Source: Bryoerythrophyllum caledonicum (taxonomy: Eukaryota; Streptophyta; Bryopsida; Pottiales; Pottiaceae). Taken from it: DNA of 64,000 nt. The stretch lies in assembly GCA_963971425.1 (NCBI GenBank), contig OZ020524.1:18045845-18109844 (forward strand), in the 5' to 3' direction. Shown piece after piece: positions 17,281 through 54,677 of this stretch (position 1 is its first letter; the number at the start of each line of letters is the position of its first letter). The translations under genes were made by a program, and so were the position numbers. Below the pieces are notes generated by a model. It made no database searches and was not told the DNA's origin. It saw nothing but the letters and a program-made list of their open reading frames with translations.

Positions 17281-19560
17281 ATGCTCCAGCATCGCACTGC
17301 TCACTTGTCCTCCATCGCCAAGAACCCCTACCTCTACAGGTATGTTCTCACCTTGTCAATGTTCAGTCACTTTGATGTCACTGTGGAGCTTGTGCATGTG
17401 CTGTGAGAATGACTGAGTTACGACTTACATATTAGTAGACGCAGAGAAACGACGCATTTAGTTTTCAGAGGTGTCTGTTGCAAGTTAGGTTGCAGCGAAA
17501 CGATGAATTCAGCTGATAAAGTTCATCGTCTCTACATGCTCATTCATGCACATCCCCTTCGCTTTCCCTGAAGAACGGATATTACAACAAGATAGTAGGC
17601 ACATCGGAGCACGGAGGGAAAGCAAGATCTGCACAGTTGGCGATACCCAAGTTCAAATAGGTCATGTTTCCAATAATCTATTATCTGATCTGAAACAACC
17701 CCTTCAGGATTAGCGTAAGTACCTCGTGATTGCTTTTGTTGATGCTTTGAAAGGGTATGGTTTGAGGGAAACTGCTCACCGATCTCTACAGCAGTATGTT
17801 TAGAGACTGGATTCAAGCTTTGCAGGTTGTTTGAAGTTTTGGATTCGGCGATTTATCTTTTCCACGATATTGTCGTTGCAGGTGAGACAATACCAGTAAA
17901 ATCAATGCCCGAGATCAAGAAACCAGCAGGCCGGAAAAGGGCGATGGGATCGGTGATCGGGCCATCGGTAATTGCCGCCTTCGTGACCCTGGCAATGACA
18001 CTGGTTCTATACTGGTCTCAGGCGACAGCGCTCGCCGGACCGACATGGCTGGCGCGAATGGTCGCTCAACCTCGCAACAAGTCTACCATCGTCTTCACTC
18101 CACCACCACCATTCCAGAACATCACAGGCAAGCTCCTCGATGAGTTAGCGCGGAACGGCACGACGCAATGCCACAACCAACGAACAAACAGCACCAAGGT
18201 GATCGGACTCCCGGAAAACCCCACTCTCTCCACCAACACACTCCACAGATTCTGGCTGCAGTCCTACACGCACGACGGCGCACCCCGATGCGCAGGCGGC
18301 GACTATTACGAGCTCGACCTCTCGAGCCCGCTCTGGAAGTCCCGGCCTGGAATCACTGACCTCCAGAACGGCACCTACGCAGTGGAGCTCCTCGTCCCGG
18401 ACGCCTTCGCCGGCGAAACCTTCAACTTCTCTGCGCACCTCCTCTTCGACGCGTACCACGGCCTCGACTTCGACGGATCGCCCTTCCAGATCGTCAAACT
18501 CACAGCCTCCCTCACCATAACCTTCGTCACCACAAACTCGAGCGCTTCCTCCGCAATCTCGAGCGCTGCCTCGAATCTCAACCGATGCAACTCCGCCAAA
18601 GATTTCTCCTCCCCGGAGTGGCGCGGCCGGTGGACTCGCCACCCCCTCGCGAACGAAACCTGCGCTCCCGACGCAGCAGGTCGCTACTTACACTGCTTCA
18701 ACTCCTCCGAGGTCCCCTGCCGCAACCCGACGTGGTGCTCCGGCGACATCTCTCGCCTCGAGAGCATCGGCTGGTCCTACAGCGCGCATTGCGCGTTCCA
18801 CATCTTCTCCCAGAGCGAGGCCTGGGACTGCCTGGCGGGCCGCTACCTCTTCTTCTGGGGCGACTCCAACCACCAGGACACCATCCGCAACCTCCTCACT
18901 CTCATCCTCGGCATCTCGCCCCCTCCTGGCCGCGGCCTGAACAACTTCAACATCGACCGCGCCTTCCAGAGTTGGTTCCGAAACCCTAGCAACCTGGACC
19001 AGGAGCTCCGCATCACGAGCCACTTCAACGGCCACCCGGAGGTCCACGGCAACTGCTACGGCTTAGACTCCCTCCACAACGACCACCAGCTCTACCGCAA
19101 CCACATCCGCGCCTACTTCCAATCCAATCACTACCCAGACACCGTCATCATGAACTCCGGCCTCCACGACGGCCTTCGCCACAGAAACCTCGACGCCTAC
19201 GTCAAGAGCGTGGAGAATGCGCTCGAGTTTTGGCAGGGCATCTTCACCAACGTGAAAGGCGAGACGCCAAATCTCATCTACAGGACGACGGTGACGCCCG
19301 CGGTCTGGTCGCGAGGAACACAGGTCAATCCGCACAAACTCGAAGTCTACAACCGCGTCATAGTGGAGAAGGTGACGGCAGCGTTTCCCGCCGTGAAACT
19401 GGTGGACGCCTTCGACATGACGTTTCCCTTTCATTACGATACCCGCTTCAGCGATGGCCGCCACTACGGTCGCCCTCCGAAAGACGGCAACAACGGGCCA
19501 CATTATTTCGTTGATCTTATGGTGGCGCATGTTCTTTTGAATGCTATATGTAAACCCTAA
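17281..19560 (+). CDS. NXPE/PC-esterase-like type II membrane protein, copy 1
   Basis: The main exon runs to the TAA at 19558-19560. The conservative start is ATG 17905, giving 551 residues. An upstream exon, 17281-17339, splices in frame to 17826 (donor AG|gtatgt, acceptor gcag|G) and would add an N-terminal extension beginning MLQHRTAHLSSIAK; both copies keep this option. Numbering from 17905: a basic N-terminus, one signal-anchor helix at about 18-37 (VIAAFVTLAMTLVLYW), a filamin-like beta domain at about 165-225 (NGTYAVELLVPDAF), then an SGNH/PC-esterase domain. GDS is at 319-321 (FFWGDSNHQD) and the DxxH motif at 517-520 (DGRH). The layout matches NXPE-like proteins, related to the TBL/PC-esterase fold that handles O-acyl groups on glycans. 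It is likely a Golgi or secretory enzyme with its catalytic domain in the lumen. Substrate unknown. Many Asn-X-Ser/Thr sites support a luminal domain. Confidence 0.8.
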
Positions 19561-31751: not shown

Positions 31752-31782
31752 TATAACGGATATTTAACTAAATATGGACAAA
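31752..31782 (+). repeat. Left terminal inverted repeat of the large transposon
   Basis: Starts TATAACGGATATTTAACTAA and ends TATGGACAAA. All 31 bp match the reverse complement of 48449-48479. A second partial motif, TTATGGACCAAA, follows inside. Confidence 0.92.
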
Positions 31783-32002
31783 TCGACCAATTATGGACCA
31801 AAAAAAAACTTGGACTCGAATTTCATTTCCTATATCATACAAAAAAACAAGAAAATATAGGCTAAATCCTAAGGATATACATTGGAAATTGCGTTCCACC
31901 AAACATTGTTCCACTCAAAACTATAATAACTATCCCATATCATTATGAAGTCTCTTCAAAACCAATAGAATCCTTAAATTTAAACGTTGGCCGTTAATCC
32001 AC

Positions 32003-32120
32003 AAAATCTAAAGATTCTCTAAAAACCTAAAGATTCTCCGTAGATCCTAAATATTCTCCCAGACCCTAAATATTCCTCTTGAACCCTAAAGAATCTCCAT
32101 ATGCCCTAAGGAATCTCAAA
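32003..32120. repeat. Subterminal repeats, unit like CCTAAAKATTCTC
   Basis: Six imperfect copies at about 20-bp spacing, 250-370 bp inside the left end (ctaaagattctc, cctaaatattctc, ccctaaagaatctc and so on). Such arrays in DNA transposons often bind transposase. No equivalent array was noticed near the right end. Confidence 0.6.
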
Positions 32121-32959
32121 GACAAAATTAAAGGTCGGGGGCCAGCCGACAAAGATTAAGGAGGAATCAGAATCACCGAATATATTGATTGAAGAAATCT
32201 CATTATAAAAAAAGGTGATAAAAAAAACTCCAATGATCAAACAATATATTCAAAAAATGGCATGAAAATAAGGTGATTATTTGGAATTTGAACAAAAAAT
32301 ATGCAGCGATGAGAGGTGGTCAAAATGATAACGAAGAACGTGGCTTGACCTTCGAGTACAAAAGTCGGCCGGTACCCGACGGACAAGAGAGAGTTTAGTG
32401 GATTTCAAACAAAGTAGGAGCCCAGTAGGCAGCTCGCAAAAGTAGTAGCAGATGGCAGAATGATCTTCTGAAAAACTAAGGAAACACTTGGAGAATAAAG
32501 GCCCGAGTAAGTAGAGCAAACATATGATCTCCAAATTCCAAAAAGAAAAGGTTGTCGGATGGCAGCCGATAAGAAGAACTTCAATGAATAAGAATGAAAT
32601 CCAGTCCACAGAATATTGTAAATAAAACATCCAAAAATGGCCATCAAGAGGATACAATGATAACAAAATTAGTGTAGAAGACAACACAATGACAGCAGAG
32701 AGAAGACAACACACGGACAAAAGTCTGTTGAACTCATATGACACACAGGATTCTACCAAGCACAACATCAAAACAGAAAGGCTAAAACCACGCTTGATTA
32801 AAAAGAAGTACATCAAGGATAAGATCCGAATAGAGCGCGATATTTTAGTAAAACTGAACGTTACAATTGGAGGTGTCCCAAAGTCGGTAGCAGTATGGAA
32901 AATCGATTAGAGAAAAGCAACTACAGGGGACTATTTACAAGCTGAACTATACTGCACAT

Positions 32960-33385
32960 CTACCAGTTCTTGCGCCATGCAGGAGCGTACATATCGTAGT
33001 CCACGTCCGAACTGGTGTCGCATCCGGTCTCAAACGCATTGTTCGAAAAGCTTGAAAATGAATCGCTGTCAACGTTTCCAATAGCCCAGAAGTCCAACTC
33101 CTCCGATCCATTGCAGTAGCGATCCTCTTCATCAGAGCATCCCAACTCAGCATTGACATGAAGACCGCCATCGTCGTCGGAATCGCCATCGACATCGGAC
33201 TCCCCTTCGTCAAGTACATCTTCATCGTTCCTGACAGTCGACAGAACAGTGCTATCCACAGAGTTCACAGACACCACACTATCCTGCGACTCTGCCTCCC
33301 TGGCAACTCTAGCCGCATTTGCCTCCCTCTCCTCCCTTTCCTCTCTCGCTCTCCTAACAATTGCCATACTACGAGTCTCAACCAT
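32960..33385 (-). CDS. Acidic protein with basic N-terminus, in the large transposon
   Basis: An uninterrupted 141-codon ORF reading MVETRSMAIVRRAREEREER. Residues about 10-32 are Arg/Glu-rich and could form a coiled coil. Residues 35-130 are very acidic and Ser-rich (DEGESDVDGDSDDDGG), and it ends APAWRKNW. It lies between the 3' end of the transposase-like gene and the left terminus, on the same strand. It has no known domain. Acidic tails like this are seen in DNA-mimic and nuclear accessory proteins, but that is only analogy. Unlike the two long genes it has no internal stop. It may also be an exon of a longer transcript, because T-rich intron-like DNA follows. Confidence 0.55.
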   Translation of the reverse strand: MVETRSMAIVRRAREEREEREANAARVAREAESQDSVVSVNSVDSTVLSTVRNDEDVLDEGESDVDGDSDDDGGLHVNAELGCSDEEDRYCNGSEELDFWAIGNVDSDSFSSFSNNAFETGCDTSSDVDYDMYAPAWRKNW

Positions 33386-34050
33386 GTCGTCAGCCGGAAG
33401 CAGAATCAGACTAAGAAACTAAGAAAACGAGCAAAAACAATACACTCCAATCTGTTGCAAGAAAAAATCCAGAAACACAGAATCAAATGAAGACAATGAG
33501 ACACTGCACATACAGTGAATCCTCGAATTTATAATTCACTTGCCGCAAATTGCGCATCAACTATAATTACTCATGTACAACTACCCATCTACTCGTCATA
33601 ATGATATCGACCAATACACGTGCCACATATTTCAGTCCTTCCCTCACACGCACGAAGACTTTGACCACAAAAAAAAGATCAAACTGCATGAGCAAAATAA
33701 AGTGGCTGTCGGCTGGCAGCCGACAAGAACAACACCAGCTATTCATAATGAGAACCAGTCAGATGAGTTACTTGACAAAAGTATCAATGGCCAAAATATG
33801 GCAGATATTACTGTTCCAGGCACCATTCAAATTAATAAATGATAAACAAAGTACATTGGACAGAACATTTATTCGTCGGCTGGCAACCGACCAAAAAAGC
33901 AATCAATCGCCAATGCCATGAATAGCGACTCCACCTCCCTCCAAACAAGCCTTCTAGTGGGATACGGTGGGTCTTAGGCGGCCCACGCTTACTATGAGAC
34001 GGGTAGCGATGCGAGAATAGAACGATATTACAGTTCTGAACATCTGGATC

Positions 34051-37000
34051 TCATTGTTCCCGTTCCCACCGCCTATTCCAGCACTCCTTTCCAATGATCT
34101 TCTTAGAATCTTTCTTGGTCGTCAGTGGAACCCACCATTCAACCTTGAAGTTCCCGTAAGAATCCCCAGAAGTGTGGTTAACGCACTCCAATACCCGGCC
34201 CATCCACACAGGAAGGTAATGACCAGTGCAAAGAACAAAATCACCAAGAAGAACATCACGAAACGGATTGAAGGTTAATTTCGGACGGCTCATCTGGGCC
34301 GCAGAAGGGTAAGGGTCGGGTTCATCTTCTGGTGTGACATCCGAGCTAGAAATATTAGCATCGGGAAATGACGATGCGCGAGCATGATCACGCACCCAGT
34401 CCGATTTCGGCCAAAATCCTTCACGCAGACTGTCGGGATTAGTAGGGAGAGGTCCAGAAATAAGTTGTAAAAGACACTCCCAATATGCAATAAAAGGTGC
34501 CATATCCGCGGCATATCTTTTGTCTCGAACCATGCCGGTCCTCCAGAACTCAATATACTTTGCAATTTCGTTCTTGATAAAGGACTGCTTCTCGTTGTTT
34601 CCACTGGCCCTGGCAACCTCCTTTTCCTTGTTACGCTTCGATTCGCTGACAAGAACGTCACCCCGAAGCGGCTTGAAAGGGACTGGTTTCGGATCACCGA
34701 TCGGAAGGCTAGGTCTCCCGAATTGATCCGTCTTCCACATCTTCATAGGCTTATCTGATTGCAAATTACAAAAAATTTAGACAAAAACAAGGAAGCAATG
34801 AAATCAAAGGAATAGAAGACAAACGAAGCACAAAAGGAAAAATCCGTCGGCTGGCAGCCGATGGGAAAGTAACAAGATAATTAGCAGAAAATGATAGAAA
34901 ACAGAAAGATGACGAAAAATAAATGAGCCACACCCGGAGGGAGCCATGATGAATCCGTCACACTTCTCTTGTATCTCATGACCGGCCATCCCGCATCTTC
35001 ACCTTCCTCTTCAACGTAAAATTTGAAAAGGTGCATCTCACCAAGACCGACAAGTTTATTCTTGCCGTCGTGATGGTAATCAGCAATGAAACTTTTAAAA
35101 TCAGCAACCTCTTGAACAAATTCAGGAATAAAGGCTACTGTGTGCTGAGAATCCATGAAAGATTTCATGAGATCAGCTAAGCAGTATGTGTTTTTCCGTT
35201 TGATGAATTTCAAAAGATAACTAAAATGCGCGTCAATGTCCTCATGAGTGTGGCCGACAATCAAGAATCCCAAAGTCACTTCCTTAAAAATTCGTCTGGC
35301 TGTGAGAAGCAAGTAGAAGGCCATGACGAACCTGTTCTTGTTATCCTTTGCAGAGTTATCAAGTTAGAGATACAGCTTCCGAGGAAGCTTAACTTCCGGT
35401 TAAGCGAGGGAAGCAACTGGGAGGGAATCGCCCCTTGCTTCTGGAATCGACGAACTACATCTGGATTTACCGCGGAGTAGAGCTTCAAAGAACGAATTTT
35501 GTGGTGGACTTATAAAAAGCTGCTTAGACTCTCGTACAGGTCGGCGCTCCAAGGCCCGAAGAACACGGCAGATAGATGAGATTGTGAAATTGGAGTCATC
35601 GGGCCATAAGGATGTCGAGTAATGCGCATACCCACCGTCGCCGTGACCGTGAGCTAGCATGCCAGTACATGAAATAGGAATCTGTCCAAGACCCGCGGTC
35701 GCCTTCGTAATCCGCTGCATTCTTGCAATGGCCGTCTTAGAAGTGTCTATCTTGTCGTGAATAATGCAGAGAAACTCAGAAGGGTAATTTATGGACTGAG
35801 ATGTCCATCCAGAGTACACATTACGGCAAGCACTTTGGTAGTTGAGATGCCGCGCCCGATCATCATACAGTGCTTGCCATTCGTCAGACCCGCGAGTATA
35901 TTTGGCAAGAAACTCAACCAGATAGTCACACTTGGTACATCTCGAAAAATTGCTTCCAACGGCCTTTACCTCAACATTCTGAAAAAACTTCCGTTTCAAT
36001 TGACTAACAGCAGATTGCGAAATCGGCTTGACACAGCATTCAGAGTTCACTTGGAATCGACAGAGAAAGCGATCAAGACTAATGATGCAAAATTTGAGAG
36101 ATGCAAAAATAGACATGCATCGGCTGCCAGCCGACAAAATGGGTTTCAGGAGCAACTCACATCCGCAAGTAGAATGAATGTAGAACATTACCAAGTTGGA
36201 CATGTCACGGAGATGATTCCAGTTCATCGCAGCTGGTAGAACCATTAGAGATGCAACCCTCTTGTTGTCGATGACTCGAAACTCATTTGGCATATGGTCT
36301 GCATTATCATTAATGATTCTGGAAAGGGTCCCACGAGCCTGAACAGTCTGAGCCCTGGGGCACAGAATTCCAGCATTGCCATGACAACCGTTTACACGTC
36401 CGTTGAACTAATCCGATTTGTACTTGTAGTATGCAGACTTGGAGACGCCATGAATGCGAAACCAGGCAACTTCACAAACATCGACGTCATGCAGAGTGAT
36501 GAAGGGTTTCCGGAAGCCCAGAACTTCGTGTAACTGGCCCTGAACAGCGTACACAGTTTCACGCCGTTGCTCGAAGCTAGAGGAGTAGAATTGCTGGCGG
36601 ATTTTACATGTGTCCGCCCAAAGAAATATCTGACAACATCGTCTCGAACAACACTTTTTTTAACTAAGAAGCTGACAATCAACTTTGGATTGGAGGCGTC
36701 GAAACTTGGTAATAGAAACATCGCTATTCTGCTTAAGCTTCCGTTTCATACCTCTGTATGGATCCTTCGCCACCCCCTCGAGCTCGTCATCTTTACATGT
36801 GGTTTGATTGTGCTCAGAGCAGTGGATAAGGCACTCAAATAGGAGTGGACCACCTTCCAGGCGCGTGTGCAAAATCTTCCAGTGGAGCGTGGTCATTTGA
36901 AGATCTTCATGCTCAGAAACAAAGAGCACGCCCACGTCAGTGTCACCCAATATGTCCGCATCACATGCCTCATGCGGGAGACAAACTTGAATCATCGCCC

Positions 37001-37979
37001 GCCCAACTAATTCGAAGTTATTGTCGAGCAAGTGGCAGTACATGTTCCTCCATTGTGGTTGATCCGGATACAAAAACTGATCACATTTGATCCCTGAAGG
37101 GAAGGATGCCTCAATTGGTGGTAGGTCAGTCGGGCGTCGGCTGCCAGCCGACGGAACGTTCTCATATCCTTCTCGGCTTGCTTCGGAGTCGCTACCTGAA
37201 TCCCCATCGAATCTCGTGGACACTTGAAAAGTGCCGTCATCATATATCCTGTCGCCGCGGTCGTCGTCATCCAAAGCGCCTGACATCTCACTCAATAGAG
37301 ATTCATCAGCTGAGTCGAATCCAGTGTCGTCACCGACCTGCGTGGGGCGAACTTGATAGCGACTCCAAAGAACAAGGTTACCCATCCTGTCTCCAAGAGT
37401 GCTCACCTCAGGGAGCTCGCAGTATGCGGTATGCGTGAGGAACTTGACATTTACTGTCTGGACTCGGACAACTAAAAAGAAGTTGTAGGGAATTAGGAAC
37501 CCTTTCCACGATCCCTTCGGTGAGCACTCGTCGATAACTCCTACACTGGCACAACAATTTTGACCCATGACATCAACAAGTAGGGCAACCTCCATGCCGT
37601 CACGAAGATTTAGAAAAGACAGAACTGGTTTGTTATCCTCAACGGGTTGCAATATGGATTCCGGTGGATCCTCAATGAGCTCGTCGATGATACCAAATGG
37701 CCGAAGGTCAGCCGCCTCCCAATCGATTGACCGGCCACAACATTCGCAAAGCATGGTTAATCCATCAGCTGGAAAAGGAATTGGCATTTCCATCGAATCG
37801 GAAACATCGATCACCTTGACACGAATAATCCATGGATCCCTGAGAATGATTTGTTGAACCACTGCGCGACCAACAAAGTAGAGGCCCGAGTGTGTTAGGG
37901 CGACTTGAACGCCTTTGCAAGGCTTCCATTGACCTGATTTTCCGTTCTTCATAAACGATAGAATGGGTCCGCAATCCAT
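34051..37979 (-). pseudogene. DUF7869-type transposase-like gene of the large transposon
   Basis: Transcription order is from 37979 down. The first long exon (36660-37979) begins MDCGPILSFMKNGKSGQWKP and has two segments resembling the plant transposon DUF8039 pattern, separated by an acidic linker. Next comes a Cys-rich segment (about 36560-36660, CCSRRCC...ADTC) and a conserved helical block. Then the core: CTKCDYLVEF near 35940, IIHDKIDTSKTA near 35755, GHGDGGYAHYS near 35620, LDNSAKDNKNRF near 35350 and VGHTHEDIDAHF near 35240. The Asp/Glu residues in these last motifs fit a DDE-type catalytic triad. The C-terminal exon (34051-34764) has FKVEWWVPL and a Trp-rich tail, typical of this family. 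Clear introns are at 36079-36191 and about 34755-34933; each holds one palindrome copy. The copy has a few internal stops. Family assignment rests on recalled DUF7869 proteins of plants and animals. The upstream boundary may extend beyond 37979, because a palindrome and acceptor-like site precede the ATG. Confidence 0.75.
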
Positions 37980-39813
37980 GTCCTAGAATGCAAACTTCGC
38001 TTCGTCGGCTAGAAGCCAACAAAAAATATCGATAAAATTGTCCAATGGACAACGCATCCAACTCGAGAATGGCTCACAAATAGAGTGAAGGCGAATGAAT
38101 GCGTCAGTGAGTCAAAATCGATGCTTTTGGTTTTAGGATTAGGGTTCAAGATTAGGGTTTGAGGTGAACTTCCAATGGATTTCAGTGCATTCGCATGAGA
38201 CTTGGGAAATTGCGAATCGGAATGAGCATGTTCGTGATTTCATGGAAAGTAGAAGCAGACTGGGAAGGACCACTTTTGTGCACAGATTCGGATGCCAGTG
38301 TTTAGGGTATCAAGACTTCAGAAATTCAGGTGTTCTATGCAGATATGACGTTAAGGTGACGCAACAAGGTTGACTTACACAGAATCAAAATGTGACTCAA
38401 AATCAGGAAAGCTGCAGGACAATACTAGGATTGTGCAGATATCTTGCAAGAGTTGTTCAACCTGGGAAATACCTTGACACCCTAATCGATTTCACAGTGA
38501 TGAAGTACGATTTTACCTAACATGGAATCTGAGCTCTAATATGAGATTGCACTGAACAGTACTACACCATAAATGATTGCCTACATCATACATGAACGCC
38601 GACTTCTAGAAAGTTCTTGTGAACGTGCAACATGAAGAATGCTGGATTGCTAAAACGAGCCACTTCAGAACAGTGTAGGGCGGACAATCAAATCTGAGAC
38701 AAGAACTGTACGACAGGAAAGCGTGTGAGGGCAGCTGCAATAAAGTGAAGCAGAAGAGAAATGACAGAGGATTCGCAGTAGATGCGTTGATATCCATCTC
38801 TCAACTGAACCATGTGCGTGAAAGTTCATTTTGAAATTTCGCGCCAGAATCACCTTCAAGGATTCGCGCCAAGAAATTCGCGCGCGTTCATTCTTGGACT
38901 ACAAATTCAAAAACGAACCGAATTGAATACTAAACTTTAATACGAAATTTGAAAAGATTTTCCACAAAATCAAAAACAAAATCTAAATGACAGGGATGAA
39001 TGAATCGAATCCGGAAGCCAAACTGAGAAGAAATTACAAAAAATCAATGAATATATGAAAGTGATATTTAAGAAAATCAAAATTTGAATACTAAATTGAA
39101 AGTTACATCAGAACAAAAAAATGATAAGTACATTTGAATATTTTTTATAAAAAAATTATAAATAAAATCGAAAATGCCAACTGTAAATCCAACTGGTTGG
39201 ATGAAAACGGTTAGACTACCGAGACTATCAGACAATCAGACTACCGAGACTCATTGATGGCCTTTCGATTTAGGTCGAAAGATGATCGAACAGTCGCGGC
39301 GTTCAGATTCGACGAGGTATAAAAAGTCAGGCATCCACCAAACCGGGTCATTTGCAATCTAGTCTTCCAGGTTTAGTTAAGCAGCTTCTGGATTAGGTAG
39401 TAAAGTTTTTCCTCTGAATCCATCCACGGCCACTTGATGTAGTGTTTCCGGCAGTTGAAGAGAGCAGTGGAGGAGCACCGAGCACGCGGAACGAGTTGGA
39501 GGAGCTCCTGCGCTAAAGTCCAAAACATCAGCCGACGGGATTTTTCCAGCAGCCGACAAAATGTCTTCAGTCGATAGGTATGATTTTCTATAACCGTTGG
39601 CTGCCAGCCGACGGAAAGCTGTATGTTTTGTCGATTTTCCATTTGTTGATTCCGTCGAACGTAATATTGCAAGATATTGCAGCAACTGTGCTGCTAGCCG
39701 ATGGTATTCTTAAGTGTCGGCTGGCAGCCGACGGAAATGTCTTCCGTCGGCTGCCAGCCGACAACATACGTCACGGACGCGGCTCATGAGCAAAGCTCGC
39801 TCATTTGTTGCGC
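37980..39813. promoter_or_regulatory. Divergent intergenic region of the large transposon
   Basis: Lies between the two divergent genes. A TATA box (TATAAAAAG) at 39318-39326 points to the plus-strand gene. Its 5' leader (about 39350-39813) carries three good palindromes and two half-sites, the densest cluster in the element. The part 38900-39230 is AT-rich. A palindrome at 38004 lies just upstream of the transposase-like ATG. Confidence 0.6.
39318..39326 (+). promoter_or_regulatory. TATA box for the plus-strand gene
   Basis: TATAAAAAG about 490 bp ahead of the first ATG of the coherent frame (39814), leaving room for a leader or a 5' intron. Confidence 0.5.
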
Positions 39814-42800
39814 ATGTTTAGTAAGCTGAAGTGGTTGTTTGGGCCTTGTATTTGTGAGGATGAGGCGGTCTCGCTCAATAATCAGGTACCGAAATCCACA
39901 TTCGAGGCTCATCTTGAATTGACAGAATGGGGCATTTCCTAGGGGGCGGGGGAGGTGACTGAAATGGGAATAAACGGGAAGCATGTGGGCAAGAGTTTTC
40001 TTGGTGGAAACCTGGTCGCTGTAATGGATATTATGGAAGATCCCGAGGACGACGGCTGTATTTGACTTCTACTGAAGGTGAAGGTTCGAGTGGCCGACGA
40101 CGAACCGGAGTCTTATGTTGTTCGAATTCGGTGGGCCCTCTGCTCACAAGAGCTATGCACGTCGGCTCAGGAGGTGGACATGCAATTTAACGACGTGTTC
40201 TCAGAGAGCCGCTTGGAATTGGTGGAGTGCTTTATGCAGGCAAATGACCAGAGAGTGGCGCTGAATGGCGGATCTGAGGGGCGGGGGAGACTGAAAGTTG
40301 CGAAGAAGCCAAGGGCCTCAAAAAAGGCTAGCAGTTCAGCACTGACTGTTGTTGTTGCGGCATCTGATAAGGCTCCAAAGAAGCGGGCGTCTAAAAAAAC
40401 TGCAAAGGAGAAGACGGTGGCTGAAGCCCTAGTATGTCTAAACAACCTCTCATCAAATACCAATAGTAAGGAGGTCGAGGAGATGTACAACACGGTCGAG
40501 AAAGGATTGGAGCGTTGTTATCCGTTTGGGCAGCGGGTTCTGCTAGTTAAGATTCATTCGTCAAAGATCCACCGTGCACCCCATGAAATGGTTTACCGTG
40601 AACTCGTCGAAAGGCGCCTCGACCAACTCCGGGTCATCTACAAAGCCGTTGGTCCTTGGAGGGCAAAACCGCCACTATATTGCGTTCCTCTGCGTGCTCC
40701 ATCAAGTTTTGCTCAAGATGGCAAGGAGTTAAAGGGTATGGAACTTCTTCGCAGGAGCGTACCAAAGATGATGGAGGACCAAGTTCATTTCGGCAGTCAG
40801 ACCTACAGGTGGTATGAAGAACCAAATTGTCATTGGTTCATGAATCATCATTGGTGGGCAGCACACTTATTCTGTGTGTAAGGAGCTCGGGGAGTTGGAG
40901 GACCCCGAATCTTCGAGAACTAAGTATTTTATGGAGTGGGACATTATTGTACTCTGGTCGAATACTCAAGACGACCTGGTGAAAATTTTGAACCTCCTGA
41001 ACGTTGATGTTGCTAAGAAGAAAGCGGAAGAGACCTACGTTCCCCAACTTCGGAGAATGCGGGAGAGGTGGGTTGAGCTCGGACGCGTTGACAAGCTTCA
41101 AGACCATACTGCCTAGAAGGTACTTATACTGCTTACTTGTTTGTTCATGCTATTTGTGTAGTGTGGCTTCAACGTATCTCACCGTCGGCTGCCAGCCGAC
41201 AGCCTGACATTTCATGGAGCCTGACTCTATTCAATCTGATTGTTGCAGGATTTCTGCAAGAATCACCTCACTGTAACTATGAGTAAGGCTAAAGATGTGG
41301 AGACTCAGAAGCTTCCCCTTGTTTTCGTTCCTGATGACCTCTACAACAAGTGGCAAGTGGTTTTTACCGCCTGGCAGATGGGTCAATTAATTGGTGAGAA
41401 CGGTCAACCTCCTCTGCAAATTCCACGAATTCCGTAGCGCGACATCACGTTCACGGACCTTTCGTACCTTGTCAACCTGCGTGACGAGGACTCCATGAAG
41501 CTTGCTGAGGCGATCCTGGATAAGAAGGTGTATATTAAGGTGAACGCAGGAAAGGAGAAGAGGATTGTTGGTGTGTGGATGAAGTCGTAGGTAAAGGATG
41601 TGAAGATGAACTACATCATCAAGAATGAATTGATGCTGAAGTACCACGATTATCCACTCAAGAAGCCTGGGGAGTCCAAATATGTTCCGTGGGCGTATGA
41701 GTAGTTTACGTTGCTTGCCGCTGAGAAGGGTATCAACGATGAAACCCTTGATAACATCCGACGCGAGTTGAAGTAGACCAATGTCGGCGCTGCATTCCTG
41801 AAGGGGAGGAACAACGGTATTACTCCGACAACTAATGAGGCCCCGCCCGAGTTTTGGTCTGCCGTGAAGAAGTACGCCGTTCTTTGTGATGAGGATTTGG
41901 TTGATGAGTTCGCCATTCGCTTTGATGTTCGCGTTGCAAAGGGGCTTGTCGAACTGGTGAAGAAGATCGACGACAAGGGCGACGTGCAACTCGAGAAGGG
42001 AGCTTGCGAGATGTTCGTTGTGTTCGGATTTGACGAAGCAGGGGAATCGATCTTTATTGGCAGAGACAGGCTCAAAGCAGTTGTGCAGAGGGTGCTTTGA
42101 GTGACTGATGATGAGCAGTCTGAGATTTTCGCTCCCACAATTCTCATAACTGACAACAACTCCAGTTTCCAAATTGAGTCGGAATGTCGCAGTTCGACTG
42201 GGATTTGTGTTGTCCACACAATTCGTTACCTCCCTGACAGTAGCCGGAAGTTTAAGGTATCGGCCATGCACGATAGGCCTCTAGCTAACGTCGGAATCCT
42301 CTACAACAAACCGAGCAATGAGCGTGAAAGATTCAGCCAGTTCAAGAAGGTGACAGGATTGACGAAGCCTCTTAATCATGTCTATGACGACGCTGCATCG
42401 CCCTCCACAGAGAGTTGGTGTGGAGATGTGTGCAATCCTTGCATGGGTTTGCTCACAGCAATTTTGAGTCCCACCTTAGCGGTGAAGGAATCAAACCTCA
42501 CCGTCTTTAATACCTGGGGCGGTGGAAATGTCACAGCTTTGGCCTTGGTTGGTTTCTTTACCCCTTGTCGTGCTTGCTTTTGTTTTTAGTCCCACATTTT
42601 ACCGATTCATGTCATTTCATCGGCTGGCAGCCGACAGTTTTTTACAGCCGGTTTCTGACTTTTCTTTTTGTATTTTTGCTCAGCGGGCGAAACAACTGTA
42701 ATTGAGTTTGTGCACAAGGAGGCTGACGTTGCTATTGCGAAGGAGCGCGATAAGAACATGTCATTTCTCCCGCAGCCGTCCGATGATCCTAATCGAATCA

Positions 42801-43560
42801 CCTGGCCTCATCAGTCGGAGTCATCAATTGGGGTTACTCGGCTTGGAGAGAATTTAGCGCCGCCCCCGGAGGTTGTGAAAGACGATGATTTTTCTCTTGC
42901 TGCTATGAAGGTAGTGGAAGAGTTCGTGGTCCAATCCACCCAGGCATCCGTATCACGGAATTCGTTGGATGTGTATGATTTATCGGACGACCAGATTTTG
43001 GATCGTGACATCGGGTTGAGTGAAGAGAAGCCTACTCTGGAACATCCATATACCCCTATCGGCGGAGTACATCAGTCAGCTGTGCCGGATGTATTGCCAA
43101 CTAGTGGAAGAGGCGATGCCAGCCGGTTCTGTCGTCATCAATTTGGCCGAGCAACCGCAAGTTGAAACACTTGTCCGGACTGTCCGTACATCTGTGGCAG
43201 TTCCAAATGCAAAGACTGTCCATCCTTCGAATCTCGCAAGGGATCCTGCTGCTCGGAGAACGATTACTCCGGATTCTAGAGTCGTCCAGCCGGGACCTCA
43301 GAAAGATGTTCCCGTGATTTCGACGGGTACTGACGTCCCTCCTGGAAGTCCTAAAGCAAAGAAGTTGAAGATTAGCAGTAAAACTTCTGGGAAGAAGCAG
43401 GCGACGTCTCCATTGGCAAAGATGAAGGGTTCTGTTGCAAAGCGCGGTGCAAGAAGCAATTCTTCTTCAAGACCGAACACCCCAATGATCCCCGATGGCG
43501 ATGATCACCCCAACGGGCCTATGTCTCCTGTCATGAATCCTGCAGGCAATCCATTTGGAG
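39814..43560 (+). pseudogene. Plus-strand gene of the large transposon, N-terminal half: basic region and DNA-methylase-like segment
   Basis: The coherent frame starts MFSKLKWLFGPCICEDEAVS at 39814. It continues through 40078-40881 (QFNDVFSESRLELVECFM, then a Lys/Ala/Ser-rich stretch KKPRASKKASSSALTV that could be nuclear-targeting or DNA-binding). After the intron 41120-41248 it reads DFCKNHLTVTMSKAK onward. The stretch 42100-42760 resembles an N6/N4 DNA methylase: LANVGILYNKPSNER in the place of a DPPY motif, then FNTWGGGNVTALALV, and across the intron 42552-42683 in phase AGETTVIEFVHKEADVAIA. This matches the usual FxGxG SAM-binding turn followed by an acidic residue and a helix. The catalytic motif looks degenerate. 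Then comes a Ser/Pro/Lys-rich linker (to 43560). The copy is broken by about ten stops over the whole gene, nearly all TAG. The methylase reading is inference. Confidence 0.5.
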
Positions 43561-46500
43561 GTTAGTTTTTTAGTTAGCTTACTGTAGATTTAGAATTTAG
43601 TGACTTAGCGTGCAACTAATTTTCTGAAATAATTTTATACCGCAATGATTCTGTGCTCAGCTACATTGCTACTTCTATGTTTGATTTTATGAATTATTTT
43701 CTGACGTTGTCAAATCTTTCGAGATGGTTCATTGGCTGGCAGCCGACCTTGGATCTAATGTCCTGTAAATGGTCTTTCTTTAAATCAGTTGATCAGCGGA
43801 TTGGTACTCCTATACTCGATGCTTATGGTATAGTGGAGCAAGTTCATGCAGATCGAGAATCTGAACCGTTTGAGCACATGGTTCAGATGGGTTTGACACC
43901 CCTCAAAGATTATTTCCTTGTACTAGAATTGAATGGTTTGGTTCTCACGCATGGTGCCGATCGTGTTACAAAGTTCCGGCCTCACACCCAAGAATTTCTC
44001 AAGTACTGTGTTGATAATTTTTCTGTTGTGATTTGGAGTTCCGAAAGTCCGGATGGAGTGGGGACTCTTCTAAACGACCTGCAAGATCAGTTCAAATTCA
44101 TTCTCAAGAGAATCAAACATATCTTCGATAATACCGATTGCGATGTAGCTCGGTATACTGATGATGGTAAAAAATTCTACCTCAAGACGCTATCAATACT
44201 ATTTCTTAGTTATGGGGATTTAATAGGGAAAGGAGCCAATAGCGCCAACACCCTTTTTATTGACGTTCATCCGTACTCGAACGTCAAGAATTCTCCATAT
44301 AACGCCATTCATCAGTTACCCTACACTCTCACTTCAACTTAGATTGCCAGAGAGAGTTCGGAAGCTCTCTCGGTGATAACTTCCTTTCTGAGTGCGTTGA
44401 AGGAATTGGGTTGGTCTGTTCCTTTGTACACCTCTACTGTGGACTACCTTATTTTGGTGAAGAAGTCTGCCTTGCCTTTTTAGAGTGACAAGCCTCGTCG
44501 TCCTTGTCCGCAACTTGCGATTCCGGAATTGAGTGCTGAGCTCTCAACCAGTGTGGATATGGTCATGCCTGATGCTGCCGTTGCCGCTCCTGTGCCTCAT
44601 GGCCGCAGGGTGACCTTCCTTGTACCTAAGCCTGTCAACCTTAATAGGACTCGGCTGGTTGCGGTCCCTCGGAATCCTCGATTACTACCAGGACAGCCGG
44701 AGTGGGAGCAGTATGTTTGGTCCTTTCCAAGCGAGAAGCGTCAAAGGTCTCCTCCAAGTAGACATTAGGTCAATACGTCGGCTGCCAGCCGACGCTGAAA
44801 TTCATTCCATTTCTTTTCGTGACATTTGTCATGACTGTGGAATTTTTTATAGTTCGCAGAGTGATACTATCTTTGTATGAATGTTTACCCATAATAAACA
44901 TCGATTGTAATGATCTCAACTTCCTATGCACTTGATGGGACCTTAATTCATACATCGTCATTGATTCATTTCTCCAGGTTAACTCTAGAGTTGGCGACGC
45001 AAGTGAGTGGTCTTTATCGCTCCGCGCCGGACCATCTGATAAGGTCAATAAGTACTTCCTTGTCTTATCTTTGAACGGTCTCTTGATGGCGCAAGGTGTT
45101 GGAGCCAACCGGAAATGGCATACCATCTTTCAGCCTATGCTGAAAGAGTTTCTCGAGTTCTGTGTTTCCAACTTCACTATGGCACTTTGGAGTGACCAAT
45201 CCAGCTCTTTCCTGAAATTACAAACGTTAGCTCTTGAGGGACAGTGTGGCATCGTTAGTGAAATTAGACATCGTTTCCACAACAACTTCTACGACACAGT
45301 GACTACATCGTTCAACGGCCGGACTCTTTACATTCGAAGGCTTTCAACCTTGTTTCCGCATCCGTCCGGCCTATTAGGCACTGGGGCAAATAGCTTAAAC
45401 ACTCTTCTACTCGGCTGCTGCCGTTTTTCTAGTGTCCGAAACAGTCTCCTCAATGTCATGCATCCATTGACATTCGATCTGACCTCGAAGGAGACCGTGA
45501 AGAATGTCGTTCTTCCTAGTGTCGTTAATTTCCTTTCTGATTTGGTTTCTTCGGGATTGCCGGTTCCTGAGTTTGTATGCGAGAACATCGATTTGACCGG
45601 ATATCCTCGTCTTTGGCCCGATGACCCAAAGTGGGCTGAATACGTCGAAGCTTACCCCAGCTCGATGCATCTCAACATATCTTTCTCTTAGGATAGAAGG
45701 GTGGGCTGGCAGCCGACGCCCTTTAATGGTCATTTTGTTAGACCTTTATTGACTTGTAGTAACTACAATTTTTTTGGTAATAAAGCTCTTTCAAATTTTT
45801 GATCAGTCATTTGTGATTGGTGCCTCACTGAATTCATGCATGTTTGCTTTATTGACTTCATATGCAAAGTTCATTCCTTGAAGTCGGAGTTCCTGGGGAT
45901 ATTTTGCACCAGCTTGCCGTTGCGACTGATGAGGGAGACATTGACTTGACGGATATCTCCCCGCGCTTCAGCGGTTTCCAGTCACTATTGGGAGATTACG
46001 AAAGACTGGAGCATCAAGATGTCAGTGGTGCCTCTTGTGGTCGTGGATTTCATGTCGATTCTGGCCAATGTTCACTTCAGCGTGGCGGGGAGCCTGCAGT
46101 TGTTTTCGAACCTTCTGTTGTAGTTGAGATCGGGTCGCCAATTCGTTTTGGGAATGTCGCTCTCGTTTCCGGCTCCACCCGCTGTCACATTGAGGAGGTG
46201 GACATGGACGATTTAGTTTCGGATGGTGTTTGTTTTGTTGGTGTCAATGTCGTTGGCTCCCAGCCGACACCATCGTCTGCTTCAGTTCCCGCTAACGACC
46301 TCAGCTCCGGTGTGGTTCCTAGGAACATTCAGGTGGGTCCTTCAAGCTACTACCTCGTCCTTGAACTAAGGGGGCTTCTCTACGCCGAAAGTTTTGTTTG
46401 TCGTGGCAATGCAAAGAGGAAGAGCTTTTATCAGAAATCTAGGCCTGGGCTTCGAGAGTTCCTTGCTTTCTGCCAGTCGTCCTTTTCGTTGGCCTTTTGG

Positions 46501-48036
46501 TCAACCGATACGTTTAGAGAGATCCATCGACACATGGATCACTTGTTCCATGTATTTCCCGACTTGCGAAAGGACACAAAAGTGTTGGGCACTTCCTACT
46601 GTGATTCCTCTGCGACCAAGAATCCCACAACTTCAGTTGCTCTGCTGCTGAAAAGGTTGGCCCGATTGTTTTCTAACAGACGCTTTTTAATCGGGCCTGA
46701 TGCGAATGAGCAGAACACGCTTCTCGTTGATCTCTTTCCTCTCCAGAATATCCTCAATAGCCCCTATAGTGCTATTCATCCTTCTCTATTTAAGTATAAT
46801 ATTCCAGAGATCTTAGTTCCCGGGATGTAGCCGTATCATTTGAGTGCATTAATTCCCTTTCTCTCGGGACTTTTGAAGTCTGGGGTTAATGTACAGGAGT
46901 ACTGCCGTTTGAATTGGGAATTCGGAACTTCTCGACTGCACCCTAGGTCGTTTCAGCATCAAAAGTACAGGGAGGTCATCTATCCCCACGCCTTGGATTT
47001 CGACGCGCCATATTGTCCCGATGAAGTGGTATCGAAGCTATTAATTGCCTACTCGAACTGAGTATCCATTAGTTTTAGAATGGGTTTTTCTGAGTTTCTT
47101 TTCCTCTTTACTACTATTGACAATCGGAAACTGATCCTTCATTACCTTCTAATTTCTTAACTTTTGCGATCTTATGATGTATTTCCTAATTCCAGTTTTT
47201 CTGTGTGTATGTATTGCCTTTATCACATGTCTGTTCTTCATCCCTTATGATGGTCATGTGCATTGTTTTGCACCGTCGGCTGGCAGCCGACGGTATAGTG
47301 TTTTCATCCATCCTGAATATTCGGCATCATGACGATTGTCTTCTTTTTTATTTTCCAGGGGTCATCGTTTTATTTCAAATGCTTATATGGAACCCCTTCA
47401 CCGTATCGAAAGTGTGTTGTCCTATGTGTCAATGGGCTCCTTTGCTTTGTAAAACCACGTGTGCCAACTTCTGGAGCTTGCACTCGTGAGAATATTGTTC
47501 GCCGGCCGGGCCTGAAGAAACTTTTTGATATGTTGCTCCCTTGCTTTGACGTCATGCTTTGGTCAACGCTACCGATGGAGGACTTACAACTTGTCTTGCG
47601 GCATATTCTTCATGTTGGCGTTATGGAGAGGCTGTCATTTGTCTATAGCAGACGTCACTTAGCTCAGGGCAAAAATTTCCCTTAGAGTTACAAAACGATG
47701 TCGATTCTTTCTAAGAGGAATCATACTCGTTATGTCTGCCTGCCTCATCAAGTTCTGTTCGTGGATGTGAACCCAAGGTCTCTCCGGAAAAACCCCGACA
47801 ACATTTGTTATATTCCCTGGCCGTTTAAGGGTCATTTGAGCCTTCGAGGCAATGACCATGCTATTCCTAACGTGGTGACCGACATCCTTCCCTTCATCCA
47901 TCCGCTTCACAGATTTTCAAGCGTCCCTGAATATTTGAAGCAAGCACATCGACATGGTCAGTCTCATTGGGCGGTTTCAAAGGCGCATGAGTGTGGGCGG
48001 ACAGTTGTTCGATGGGACGAAATTGAATGGTACTAG
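43561..48036 (+). pseudogene. Plus-strand gene of the large transposon, C-terminal half: four FCP1-like domains
   Basis: After the intron 43561-43788 come four repeats of an FCP1/HAD-phosphatase-like domain. Domain 1 (about 43905-44340): YFLVLELNGLVLTH, FRPHTQEFLKYC, VVIWSS, NTLFIDVHPYSNVKNSPYNA. Domain 2 (about 45050-45690): YFLVLSLNGLLMA, FLEFCVSNFTMALWS, NTLLLGCCRF. Domain 3 (about 46340-46820): YYLVLELRGLLYA, RPGLREFLAFC, LAFWST, NTLLVDLFPL. Domain 4 (about 47385-48030): CVVLCVNGLLCF, RPGLKKLFDML, VMLWST, VLFVDVNPR. Plant FCP1-like proteins have D-L-N-G at motif 1 and I-D-D at the last motif; here motif 1 reads ELNG, SLNG, ELRG and CVNG, so the nucleophile Asp is absent in all four. They are likely binding modules, not phosphatases. 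Introns end at 43788, 44977, about 45860 and about 47359, each with one palindrome. One further palindrome (46252) is translated in frame. Confidence 0.65.
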
Positions 48037-48448
48037 GTCTTCTTCTTCGGCTGCCAGCCGATGGTCTTTAAATTAGTTTTTGTCTGTGATTTGAAGGATG
48101 CATTTCGTGATGTTCATGACACTGAACATTTGTGTTGTATAATTTGATTTAGAGTGTTCATGTACGGTTTATTAGTTTTCGATCAACTTCAATCTAGGAT
48201 GGTTTTCTTCTACGAAGTTGTATTTTTTAGTTTTCGAGATGTTATCTTTTTGGTTGGCTGCCAGCTGACACTGTAATTTGTTCGGATCATAATACATCTC
48301 TTTTTAGCAACTGGTATATCTTTTATTGCAACATCGAATTTGTCCATTGTGTTTTTCTTGCTTTAATACTTTGCCCTCTGCTGCCCGCCGACTGATTTTT
48401 TTTCTCAGTGACTTGCTTTTGACTCGTTTTTTTATTTCTGGACTTTGT

Positions 48449-48479
48449 TTTGTCCATATTTAGTTAAATATCCGTTATA
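48449..48479 (-). repeat. Right terminal inverted repeat of the large transposon
   Basis: Ends TTAGTTAAATATCCGTTATA on the plus strand, the exact inverse of the left terminus. Confidence 0.92.
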
Positions 48480-52403: not shown

Positions 52404-54677
52404 ATGCTCCAGCATCGCACTGCTCACTTGTCCTCCATCGCCAGGAACCCCTACCTCTACAGGTATGTTCTCACCTTGTCAATGTTCTGCCACTTTGATG
52501 TCATTGTGGAGCTTGTGCATGTGCTGTGAGAATGACTGAGTTACGTCTTACATATTAGTAGACGCAGAGAAACGATGCATTTAGTTTTCAGAGGTGTCTG
52601 TTGCAAGTTAGGTTGCAGCGAAACGATGAATTCAGCTGATAAAGTTCATCGTCTCTACTTGCTCATTCATGCACATCCCCTTCGCTTTCCCTGAAGAACG
52701 GATATTACAACAAGATAGTAGGCACATCGGAGCACGGAGGGAAAGCAAGATCTGCACAGTTGGCGATACCCAAGTTCAAATAGGTCATGTTTCCAATAAT
52801 CTATTATCCGATCTGAAACAACCCCTTCAGGATTAGCATAAGTACCTCGTGATTGCTTTTGTTGATGCTTTGAAAGGATATGGTTCGAGGGAAACTGCTC
52901 ACCAATCTCTACAGTAGTATGTTTAGAGACTGGATTCAAGCTTCGCAGGTTGTTTGAAGTTTTGGATTCGGCGATTTATCTTTTCCACGATATTGTCGTT
53001 GCAGGTGAGACAATACCAGTAAAATCAATGCCCGAGATCAAGAAACCAGCAGGCCGGAAAAGGGCGATGGGATCGGTGATCGGGCCATCGGTAATTGCCG
53101 CCTTTGTGACCCTGGCAATGACACTGGTTCTATACTGGTCTCAGGCGAAAGCGCTCGCCGGACCGACAAGGCTGGCGCGAATGGCCGCTCAACCTCGCAA
53201 CAAGTATTATACCATGGTCTTCACTCCACCATCGCCATTCCAGAACATCACAGGCAAGCTCCTCGATGAGCTAGCGCGGAACGGCACGACGCAATGCCAC
53301 AACCAACGAACAAACAGCACCAAGGTGATCGGACTCCCGGAGAACCCCACTCTCTCCACCAACACACTCCACAGATTCTGGCTGCAGTCCTACACGCACG
53401 ACGGCGCACCCCGATGCGCAGGCGGCGACTATTACGAGCTCGACCTCTCGAGCCCGCTCTGGAAGTCCCGGCCTGGAATCACGGACCTCCAGAACGGCAC
53501 CTACGCAGTGGAGCTCCTCGTCCCGGACGCCTTCGTCGGCGAAACCTTCAACTTCTCTGCGCACCTCCTCTTCGACGCGTACCACGGCCTCGACTTCGAC
53601 GGATCGCCCTTCCAGATCGTCAAACTCACAGCCTCCCTCACCATAACCTTCGTCACCACAAACTCGAGCGCTTCCTCCGCAATCTCGAGCGCTGCCTCGA
53701 ATCTCAACCGATGCAACTCCGCCAAAGATTTCTCCTCCCCGGAGTGGCGCGGCCGGTGGACTCGCCACCCCCTTGCGAACGAAACCTGCGCTCCCGACGC
53801 AGCAGGTCGCTACTTACACTGCTTCAACTCCTCCGAGGTCCCCTGCCGCAACCCGACGTGGTGCTCCGGCGACATCTCTCGCCTCGAGAGCATCGGCTGG
53901 TCCTACAGCGCGCACTGCGCGTTCCACATCTTCTCCCAGAGCGAGGCCTGGGACTGCCTGGCGGGCCGCTACCTCTTCTTCTGGGGCGACTCCAACCACC
54001 AGGACACCATCCGCAACCTCCTCACTCTCATCCTCGGCATCTCGCCCCCTCCTGGCCGCAACGTGGCCCACTTCTCCGTCGACCGCGCCTTCCAGAGCTG
54101 GTTCCGAAACCCTAGCAACCTGGACCAGGAGCTCCGCATCACGAGCCACTTCAACGGCCACCCGGAGGTCCACGGCAACTGCTACGGCTTAGACTCCCTC
54201 CACAACGACCACCAGCTCTACCGCAACCACATCCGCGCCTACTTCCAATCCAACCACTACCCGGACACCGTCATCATGAACTCCGGCCTCCACGACGGCC
54301 TCCGCCACAGAAACCTCGACGCCTACATCAAGAGCGTGGGGAATGCGCTCGAGTTTTGGCAGGACATCTTCACCAACGTGGAAGGCGAGACGCCTAATCT
54401 CGTCTACAGGACGACGGTGACGCCCGCGGGCAGGTCGCGAGGAATGCAGGCCAATCCCCACAAACTCGAAGTCTACAACCGCGTCATAGTTGAGAAGGTG
54501 ACGGCAGCGTTTCCCGCCGTGAAACTGGTGGACGCCTTCGACATGACGTTTCCCTTTCATTACGACAACAGCTTCAGCGATGGCGGCCACTATGGTCGCG
54601 CTCCGGGCAACGGGCTTCGTTACTCCGTTGACGTTATGGTAGCGCATGTTCTTTTGAATGCTATATGTAAACCCTAA
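52404..54677 (+). CDS. NXPE/PC-esterase-like type II membrane protein, copy 2
   Basis: Paralogue of 17281-19560. The conservative start is ATG 53028 (549 residues); the optional upstream exon is 52404-52462. The domain order is unchanged: membrane anchor, filamin-like beta domain, SGNH/PC-esterase domain with GDS in FFWGDSNHQD and a DxxH motif reading DGGH. Most of the protein is identical to copy 1. Differences cluster in three places: after the anchor (KYYTMVFTPPSPF against KSTIVFTPPPPF), just after the GDS block (RNVAHFSVDRAF against RGLNNFNIDRAF), and around the catalytic His (SDGGHYGRAPGN against SDGRHYGRPPKD). The frame is intact, so both copies may be active. The clustering near the active site hints at gene conversion with another paralogue or at altered substrate choice. 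Confidence 0.8.

Follow-up and report, generated by a model that had tools for sequence, protein, structure and literature searches.

The 64,000-nucleotide stretch of the moss Bryoerythrophyllum caledonicum analyzed here (NCBI GenBank assembly GCA_963971425.1, contig OZ020524.1, positions 18,045,845 to 18,109,844; the whole stretch is called the window) holds a DNA transposon of ~16.7 kb with terminal inverted repeats (TIRs), in which a 17-bp palindrome, GTCGGCTGSCAGCCGAC, recurs throughout the non-coding DNA. We judge it probable, with reservations, that this palindrome serves as an operator specific to the family, a dyad for a dimeric binder that is probably encoded by the element itself, with anti-silencing or self-activation as its likeliest role.

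The palindrome is confined to the element. Seven exact copies are present in the window, and 22 sites are found at up to 3 mismatches, all within 32134-48392, compared to a mean of 0.02 in shuffled sequence. The half sites CAGCCGAC (16 of 16 in the window) and GTCGGCTG (9 of 9) also fall within the element. No match at up to 3 mismatches was found in 112,804 bp outside element copies, taken from either side of the element in the window and from the flanks in ten fetched stretches. Twenty 10-kb tiles fetched from the genome yielded eight long or partial copies (E1 to E8), with 80-88% identity to the window copy and, for E1-E4, 95.5-96.2% identity among themselves; the E5 and E6 tiles were left out of the outside DNA. 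Across the 437-Mb assembly, the exact palindrome occurs at 428 places and its reversed control at none. We read 46 exact sites among the first 50 listed of the 428, and all 46 lie in element-derived DNA (43 in element copies or fragments and 3 in miniature inverted-repeat transposable elements [MITEs]). The original prediction of at least 22 copies, confined to the element, was upheld at 3 mismatches; as a count of exact copies, the number falls to seven. The element carries a transposase-like gene on the minus strand and, on the plus strand, an orphan gene whose last exon is the first of four NIF-like frames. The sites are positioned as follows, with mismatches given for the window copy.

32134-32150: palindrome, left flank, 2 mismatches
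32364-32380: palindrome, 3 mismatches (1 in E1, E4 and E7)
32554-32570: palindrome, 2 mismatches (0 in E1 and E3)
33708-33724: palindrome, exact
33875-33891: palindrome, 1 mismatch
34846-34862: palindrome in a transposase intron, 1 mismatch
36119-36135: palindrome in a transposase intron, 1 mismatch
37136-37152: palindrome in a transposase coding linker, exact
38004-38020: palindrome just ahead of the presumed start codon (ATG) of the transposase, 3 mismatches (1 in E1 and E4)
39596-39762: three palindromes (39596, 39716 and 39746) in the leader of the plus-strand gene
41184-41200: palindrome in plus-strand gene intron 1, exact
42619-42635: palindrome in plus-strand gene intron 2, 1 mismatch
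43731-43747: palindrome in plus-strand gene intron 3, 2 mismatches (0 in E1, E2, E4, E5 and E7)
44777-44793: palindrome 8 nt past the first NIF stop, exact
45701-45717: palindrome 9 nt past the second NIF stop, 1 mismatch
46252-46268: palindrome in a coding linker of the third NIF frame, 2 mismatches
47275-47291: palindrome in the spacer preceding the fourth NIF frame, exact
48046-48392: right-flank palindromes at 48046 (2 mismatches), 48253 (2 mismatches; 1 in E1, E3 and E8) and 48376 (3 mismatches)

The sites are also evenly placed. Twenty of the 22 are non-coding, and the two coding sites (37136 and 46252) both lie in linkers. Exactly one site is present in each of the eight small non-coding gaps, which comprise five supported introns and three inter-frame spacers. 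When the 22 sites minus the two coding ones were thrown at random into the non-coding segments (200,000 draws, with intron coordinates slightly off the final ones), the mean was 2.6 one-site gaps, and all eight were reached at P = 8e-5, in agreement with the earlier claim that the placement is too regular for chance. From 33875 to 48046, the 14 sites considered are separated by 13 distances with a mean of 1,090 bp and a coefficient of variation of 0.27; eight close-set or terminal sites of the 22 are omitted from this figure. The first 379 bp at the left end hold no site, and the right end has a poor site at 84 bp and a 2-mismatch site at 207 bp. The genes that define these gaps are the following.

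34051-37979, minus strand: transposase-like gene, DUF7869 (PF25273), broken by stops in the window copy; 3' end provisional
34755-34933, minus strand: transposase intron with palindrome 34846; junction equal in Ceratodon P0002
36051-36191, minus strand: transposase intron with palindrome 36119; the window copy has lost the acceptor AG to mutation; the intron for which 15 further copies were compared
39798-44768, plus strand: orphan gene, exons 39798-41119, 41249-42547, 42684-43560 and 43789-44768 (the last NIF-like, 9.7e-12)
44979-45691, plus strand: second NIF-like frame, ending in TAG in 9 of 9 copies
45862-47061, plus strand: third NIF-like frame, stop TAA or TGA in 9 of 9 copies
47360-48036, plus strand: fourth NIF-like frame, stop TAG in most copies

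The plus-strand gene had been proposed to have six introns with one palindrome each. The one-to-one relationship held for all six gaps; as introns, three stood (41120-41248, 42548-42683 and 43561-43788), with splice sites kept in most compared copies and AG or GT lost in single copies. The other three are spacers that follow conserved stops. Those with 44777 and 45701 start after TAG in 9 of 9 copies and lack a conserved GT donor, and the one with 47275 starts after TAA or TGA in 9 of 9 copies, where a donor-like GT is kept. The plus-strand gene may be split or joined differently from the exon structure drawn here. Both proposed transposase introns, each with one palindrome, were substantiated by Ceratodon purpureus protein models (P0001 and P0002; 50-61% protein identity), which skip sequence at the same places. 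These introns are old, given that their positions are common to relatives at this level of identity, which also speaks against introns having been gained by insertion of the palindrome, another of the earlier proposals. The relationship first described as one palindrome per intron is more aptly described as a single palindrome in each non-coding gap, roughly one per kilobase.

The sites resisted change between subfamilies. In the sites of the eight gaps, 6 of 136 window-copy bases depart from a consensus built on E1-E4 and E8, compared to 182 of 1,259 in the rest of the gaps (Fisher P = 5e-4). The corresponding counts for E5, which diverges most (~20%), are 2 of 68 and 148 of 838 (P = 5.5e-4), and for E6 they are 7 of 102 and 140 of 1,055. 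Over all 20 aligned sites of the window copy (39716 and 39746 were excluded for poor alignment), 19 of 340 bases differ, compared to 656 of the 4,787 remaining non-coding bases (P = 4e-6). At CpG positions of the window copy, the difference persists (8 of 98 in sites and 58 of 284 elsewhere; P = 0.005). The center of the dyad is free to be either G or C: across 144 site-copies, it reads G in 74, C in 68 and another base in 2.

A sister family in the same genome carries a symmetrically altered dyad. A genome search with a Ceratodon protein gave 158 matches, and among the matches listed there were 49 loci (49 of 4,891 first-look candidates were scored); it revealed copies that encode a somewhat different protein. 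We fetched the homologous second transposase intron from 15 of the 49 loci, picked beforehand by gap size and divergence. Six introns are of the first sequence type and hold the first motif at 1-3 mismatches. Nine are of a second sequence type, as judged by eye, and in place of the first motif hold GTCGGCGG-C-CCGCCGAC at 0-2 mismatches; none of the 15 is without either dyad. The general form of this second dyad (B) is GTCGGCGG-S-CCGCCGAC, and it differs from the first (A) by one change per arm (T>G in one, A>C in the other), so that symmetry is retained. With the palindrome removed, one A and one B intron aligned no better than shuffles (13 of 200 reached the score). In a search made after the introns had been read, the second dyad was found at 197 exact places genome-wide and its reversed control at none. 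Outside the 15 introns, detailed examination covered contig C1. The sites listed for C1 as far as 22.7 Mb number 50 for A and 24 for B, and an A and a B site never come within 20 kb of each other. Of the six transposase copies listed on this stretch, each lies near one kind of dyad, the other kind being at least 480 kb off; the nearest own dyad is 79 to 1,080 bp from the three A copies and 88, 1,185 and 14,342 bp from the three B copies.

Traces of the motif also appear in relatives, among them Ceratodon, that are known from protein models, some of which seem to read through introns and leaders. When the motif was read back through the genetic code, P0001-P0005 contained 9 windows within one base, compared to 0.15 in shuffled proteins; at two mismatches, there were 3 windows, compared to 1.5. 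The perfect motif peptide RRLPAD occurs in P0003, which apparently runs past an exon end at the second intron, and P0002 has VGGPPT at the second intron, the peptide expected from translation of the second dyad.

Short derivatives of the element have kept the palindrome as well. The ends of the element are as follows.

31755-48476, no strand assigned: whole TIR DNA transposon, ~16.7 kb, with target-site duplication (TSD) ATAT/ATAC, one base off
31752-31782, plus strand: left TIR, 31 nt as found, of which the flank contributes the first 3 nt
48449-48479, minus strand: right TIR, 31 nt as found, of which the flank contributes the last 3 nt

The two 31-nt TIRs are 100% identical, and the TSD of the window copy matches at 3 of 4 bases. 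A clean 4-bp TSD flanks all seven insertions with both ends intact (E1, E3, E4 and MITEs S1, S2, S3a and S3b), and a 4-bp TSD also flanks two further MITEs. The direct repeats of the seven other insertions place the element end at AACGGATATTT (or its MITE form). With TIRs, a TSD, multiple copies and non-autonomous derivatives, the element has the features of a TIR DNA transposon. Four short elements of ~340 bp at three loci have the same kind of ends, 4-bp duplications and two palindromes each (0-2 mismatches), placed ~45-65 nt inside the ends; besides the TIR and the palindrome, the MITEs read have no BLAST match to the long element over 150 nt. A 26-nt MITE-end sequence occurs 159 times at up to 3 mismatches. 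If one position is left free, 87 ends match it exactly (35, together with 52 of the 57 rows with one mismatch, a hand count); at 68 of these, GTCGGC starts exactly 2 nt beyond the fixed sequence. The MITE copies at L032 (4719-5058) and L034 (4971-5310) share flanks in opposite orientation and, because of this, were probably carried along in the duplication of a larger repeat.

We hypothesize that the dyad would be bound by a dimeric, sequence-specific DNA-binding protein, and an operator of this type is likely, given that a free G/C center and a symmetric form kept through a family change are the signature of such a protein. The binder would belong to the family and not the host, since sister families in one genome hold exclusive dyads; it is probably element-encoded, with the DUF7869 transposase and the orphan NIF-repeat protein as candidates. 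Sites about every kilobase, mostly free of coding constraint, could allow the protein to mark the full 16.7-kb element. Control of the whole element would fit better than recognition of its ends because the sites cover the body and are absent from the left terminal stretch. The MITEs, with two sites retained, would remain under the same control, and this retention suggests a part for the site in mobility or in its control in trans. The likeliest outcome would be self-activation or protection from silencing along the whole element, as VANC provides for VANDAL, perhaps together with help in transposition, as TNPA provides for Spm/En. We hold an anti-silencing or self-activating role, which is drawn by analogy, as plausible but tentative.

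Several observations weigh against this interpretation. E7 shows no clear protection of its sites (7 of 136 compared to 92 of 1,257). Decay of the sites after insertion equals or exceeds that of their surroundings, with 9 of 136 compared to 30 of 1,259 in E1, likewise in E2, E3 and E8, and equal rates in E4, and 118 of 204 site changes are C>T or G>A; this is the pattern that sites selected during family activity and then left to decay should show. The window copy's own match to the motif decided which sites were used, and this biases the comparison in favor of that copy and to a smaller extent in favor of E5. The exclusivity of the A and B dyads rests on part of one contig, and the nine B copies were set apart as a family partly via the same introns. 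Among the relatives, P0005 has no motif-like peptide when the motif is read back through the code, and P0001-P0003 are close relatives, so the matches represent few independent events. At 19 of the 87 MITE ends, exact GTCGGC is absent from the expected spot. Finally, AlphaFold models of two orphan-gene exons were unusable (mean predicted local distance difference test score, 30), and the binder is a candidate only.

Of the roles offered in the original prediction, binding sites for a transposase or regulator are best supported, through confinement, constraint and the symmetric dyad switch, and sites that block silencing have the nearest known parallel, in VANC. A cis requirement like that of TNPA, in which the transposase or a helper would bind the sites to assemble the ends and the internal sites would be extras, is in our view rather unlikely. 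The MITEs do keep two sites near their ends, one end at a fixed spacing to TIR-proximal sequence, and TNPA of Spm/En is reported to bind subterminal repeats that excision requires and to act in transcriptional regulation as well (PMC2613891); however, the full element has a bare left end and, at its right, a poor site and one with 2 mismatches, and introns and spacers distant from both ends hold one site each. We also considered an operator of a host transcription factor, by which the element would borrow a host activator. The outer arms, GTCGG and CCGAC, contain the dehydration-responsive element/C-repeat core of AP2/ERF proteins, and the arms GTCGGC and GCCGAC are identical in the A and B motifs. 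We nevertheless regard this as improbable, as it leaves unexplained both the two exclusive dyads in two families of one genome and the absence of the motif from the 112,804 bp of other DNA.

A role as RNA hairpins (7 bp with a 3-nt loop) in splicing, 3' ends or RNA decay, also among the earlier options, was weakened, and we consider it very unlikely. The motif folds at -9.9 kcal/mol, sites lie 8-9 nt past the stop codons of three of the four NIF frames, pairing survives the A-to-B change, and positions 8 and 10, which would lie in the loop, are a little more variable than the arms (each changed in 17 of 144, compared to a mean of 12). Yet of 17 double changes at paired positions in the 144 site-copies, 5 restore pairing, one-sided changes number 170, and MITEs without genes retain sites. 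That the palindrome is a passive repeat, a short sequence spread by gene conversion or insertion without function, is scarcely credible, even though one short motif in many copies in one element, some of them degenerate, is what such spread could leave. The sites resist change between subfamilies and number one per gap, the two families keep a dyad in a homologous intron whose remainder cannot be aligned, and the 24 longest non-TIR inverted matches inside the element (of 55 pairs) contain the motif and reach barely beyond it. An origin of the sites in tandem repeats was dismissed: the element holds two short tandem arrays (32008-32099 and 33166-33212), and sites are present at neither. The array at 32008-32099, near the left end, consists of a 19-bp CTAAAGATTCTCC-like unit.

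An operator of this kind finds its nearest described case in VANC and its second nearest in TNPA. VANC is reported to bind short motifs in VANDAL21 DNA outside the coding sequence, including introns, which leads to loss of methylation along the element, and the VANC21 motif YAGTATTAY is non-palindromic and occurs in dense arrays in one orientation, often in tandem repeats (PMC5735166, PMC10398659). By the same reports, the VANDALs, which are Mutator-like elements of Arabidopsis, resemble the moss element in having a short motif in non-coding DNA, introns included, that differs between related families and is rare in other transposable elements. In contrast, the moss sites are mostly single dyads ~1 kb apart and outside tandem arrays, without the dense arrays of VANDAL, and the moss transposase is of the DUF7869 type and not a Mutator-like VANA. 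Binding and demethylation are putative in the moss. Spm/En is reported to have many copies of a short TNPA motif that are needed in cis by non-autonomous copies too and vary between families (PMC2613891). The moss element shares the many copies and their presence in non-autonomous derivatives, with a putative binder; unlike TNPA motifs, which are subterminal, its sites fill introns and spacers throughout. Its TIR, AACGGATATTT..., and 4-bp TSD also differ from the CACTA (En/Spm) type, in which the TIR starts with CACTA and the TSD is 3 bp. The moss element is a member of neither group, as it differs in its transposase family and in the form and arrangement of its motif. As to superfamily, a 4-bp TSD is also known from Sola and Ginger.

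The minus-strand gene encodes a DUF7869 protein, with a match to PF25273 at 2.9e-29 (102.5 bits, compared to a curated cut-off of 26). The closest relatives of the protein are two Ceratodon purpureus proteins (51% identity over 92% of the query for one and 50% over 88% for the other), a relationship that by itself makes a moss host very probable. They share the two transposase intron positions and have motif-like peptides in linkers, leader and intron, a comparison that rests on protein models and not DNA. No Mutator-type domain was found in the element pieces scanned against Pfam, and our literature search found no paper naming DUF7869. The exons of the orphan gene, at least four in number, are open in the majority sequence of eight copies, no single copy having all of them open; homologue searches with this gene and with the third NIF frame found none, and the first NIF frame (from E3) matched no solved structure. 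Four consecutive NIF (FCP1-like) frames at 43788-48036, the first three ending in stops kept in 9 of 9 copies, are odd cargo for a transposon. DxDx is the motif of FCP1-type phosphatases and holds their usual catalytic aspartates. The four frames look catalytically dead because this motif is absent from all of them (LELNG, LSLNG, LELRG and LCVNG in the window copy). The window copy itself is decayed. Its in-frame stops (34884-48036) reflect decay (CAG>TAG, TGG>TAG, CGA>TGA and others) because other copies mostly have sense codons there (CAG, CAA, TGG, TCG, TCA, CGA and GAG); an altered genetic code, considered for frames broken mainly by TAG and TAA, was rejected. A short acidic reading frame on the minus strand (32960-33418), between the left end and the transposase end, is also open in the majority sequence of the other copies. 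Flanking the element, two nearly alike open frames of ~604 amino acids (17743-19560 and 52866-54677) with weak, below-cut-off similarity to NXPE4_C are a local duplication.

In summary, our study describes a moss transposon with its own palindromic sites. We found no account of such a palindrome in moss transposons in a literature search by title and start of the abstract, with subscription papers largely outside it. How a transposon recognizes itself over many kilobases is an open question, and to our knowledge it has been explained so far mainly for Arabidopsis VANDALs. We tentatively propose that this is a group of moss transposons in which each family would have its own palindromic address and a self-recognition protein that protects the element and its MITEs from silencing, and in which symmetric changes of the arms would split families, with operator and binder co-evolving as in bacterial repressors. 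Two families in one moss genome, with exclusive dyads one symmetric change apart, make such operator-binder co-evolution directly testable. If true, this would represent a second, independent plant origin of sequence-specific anti-silencing, far from the VANDALs of Arabidopsis.

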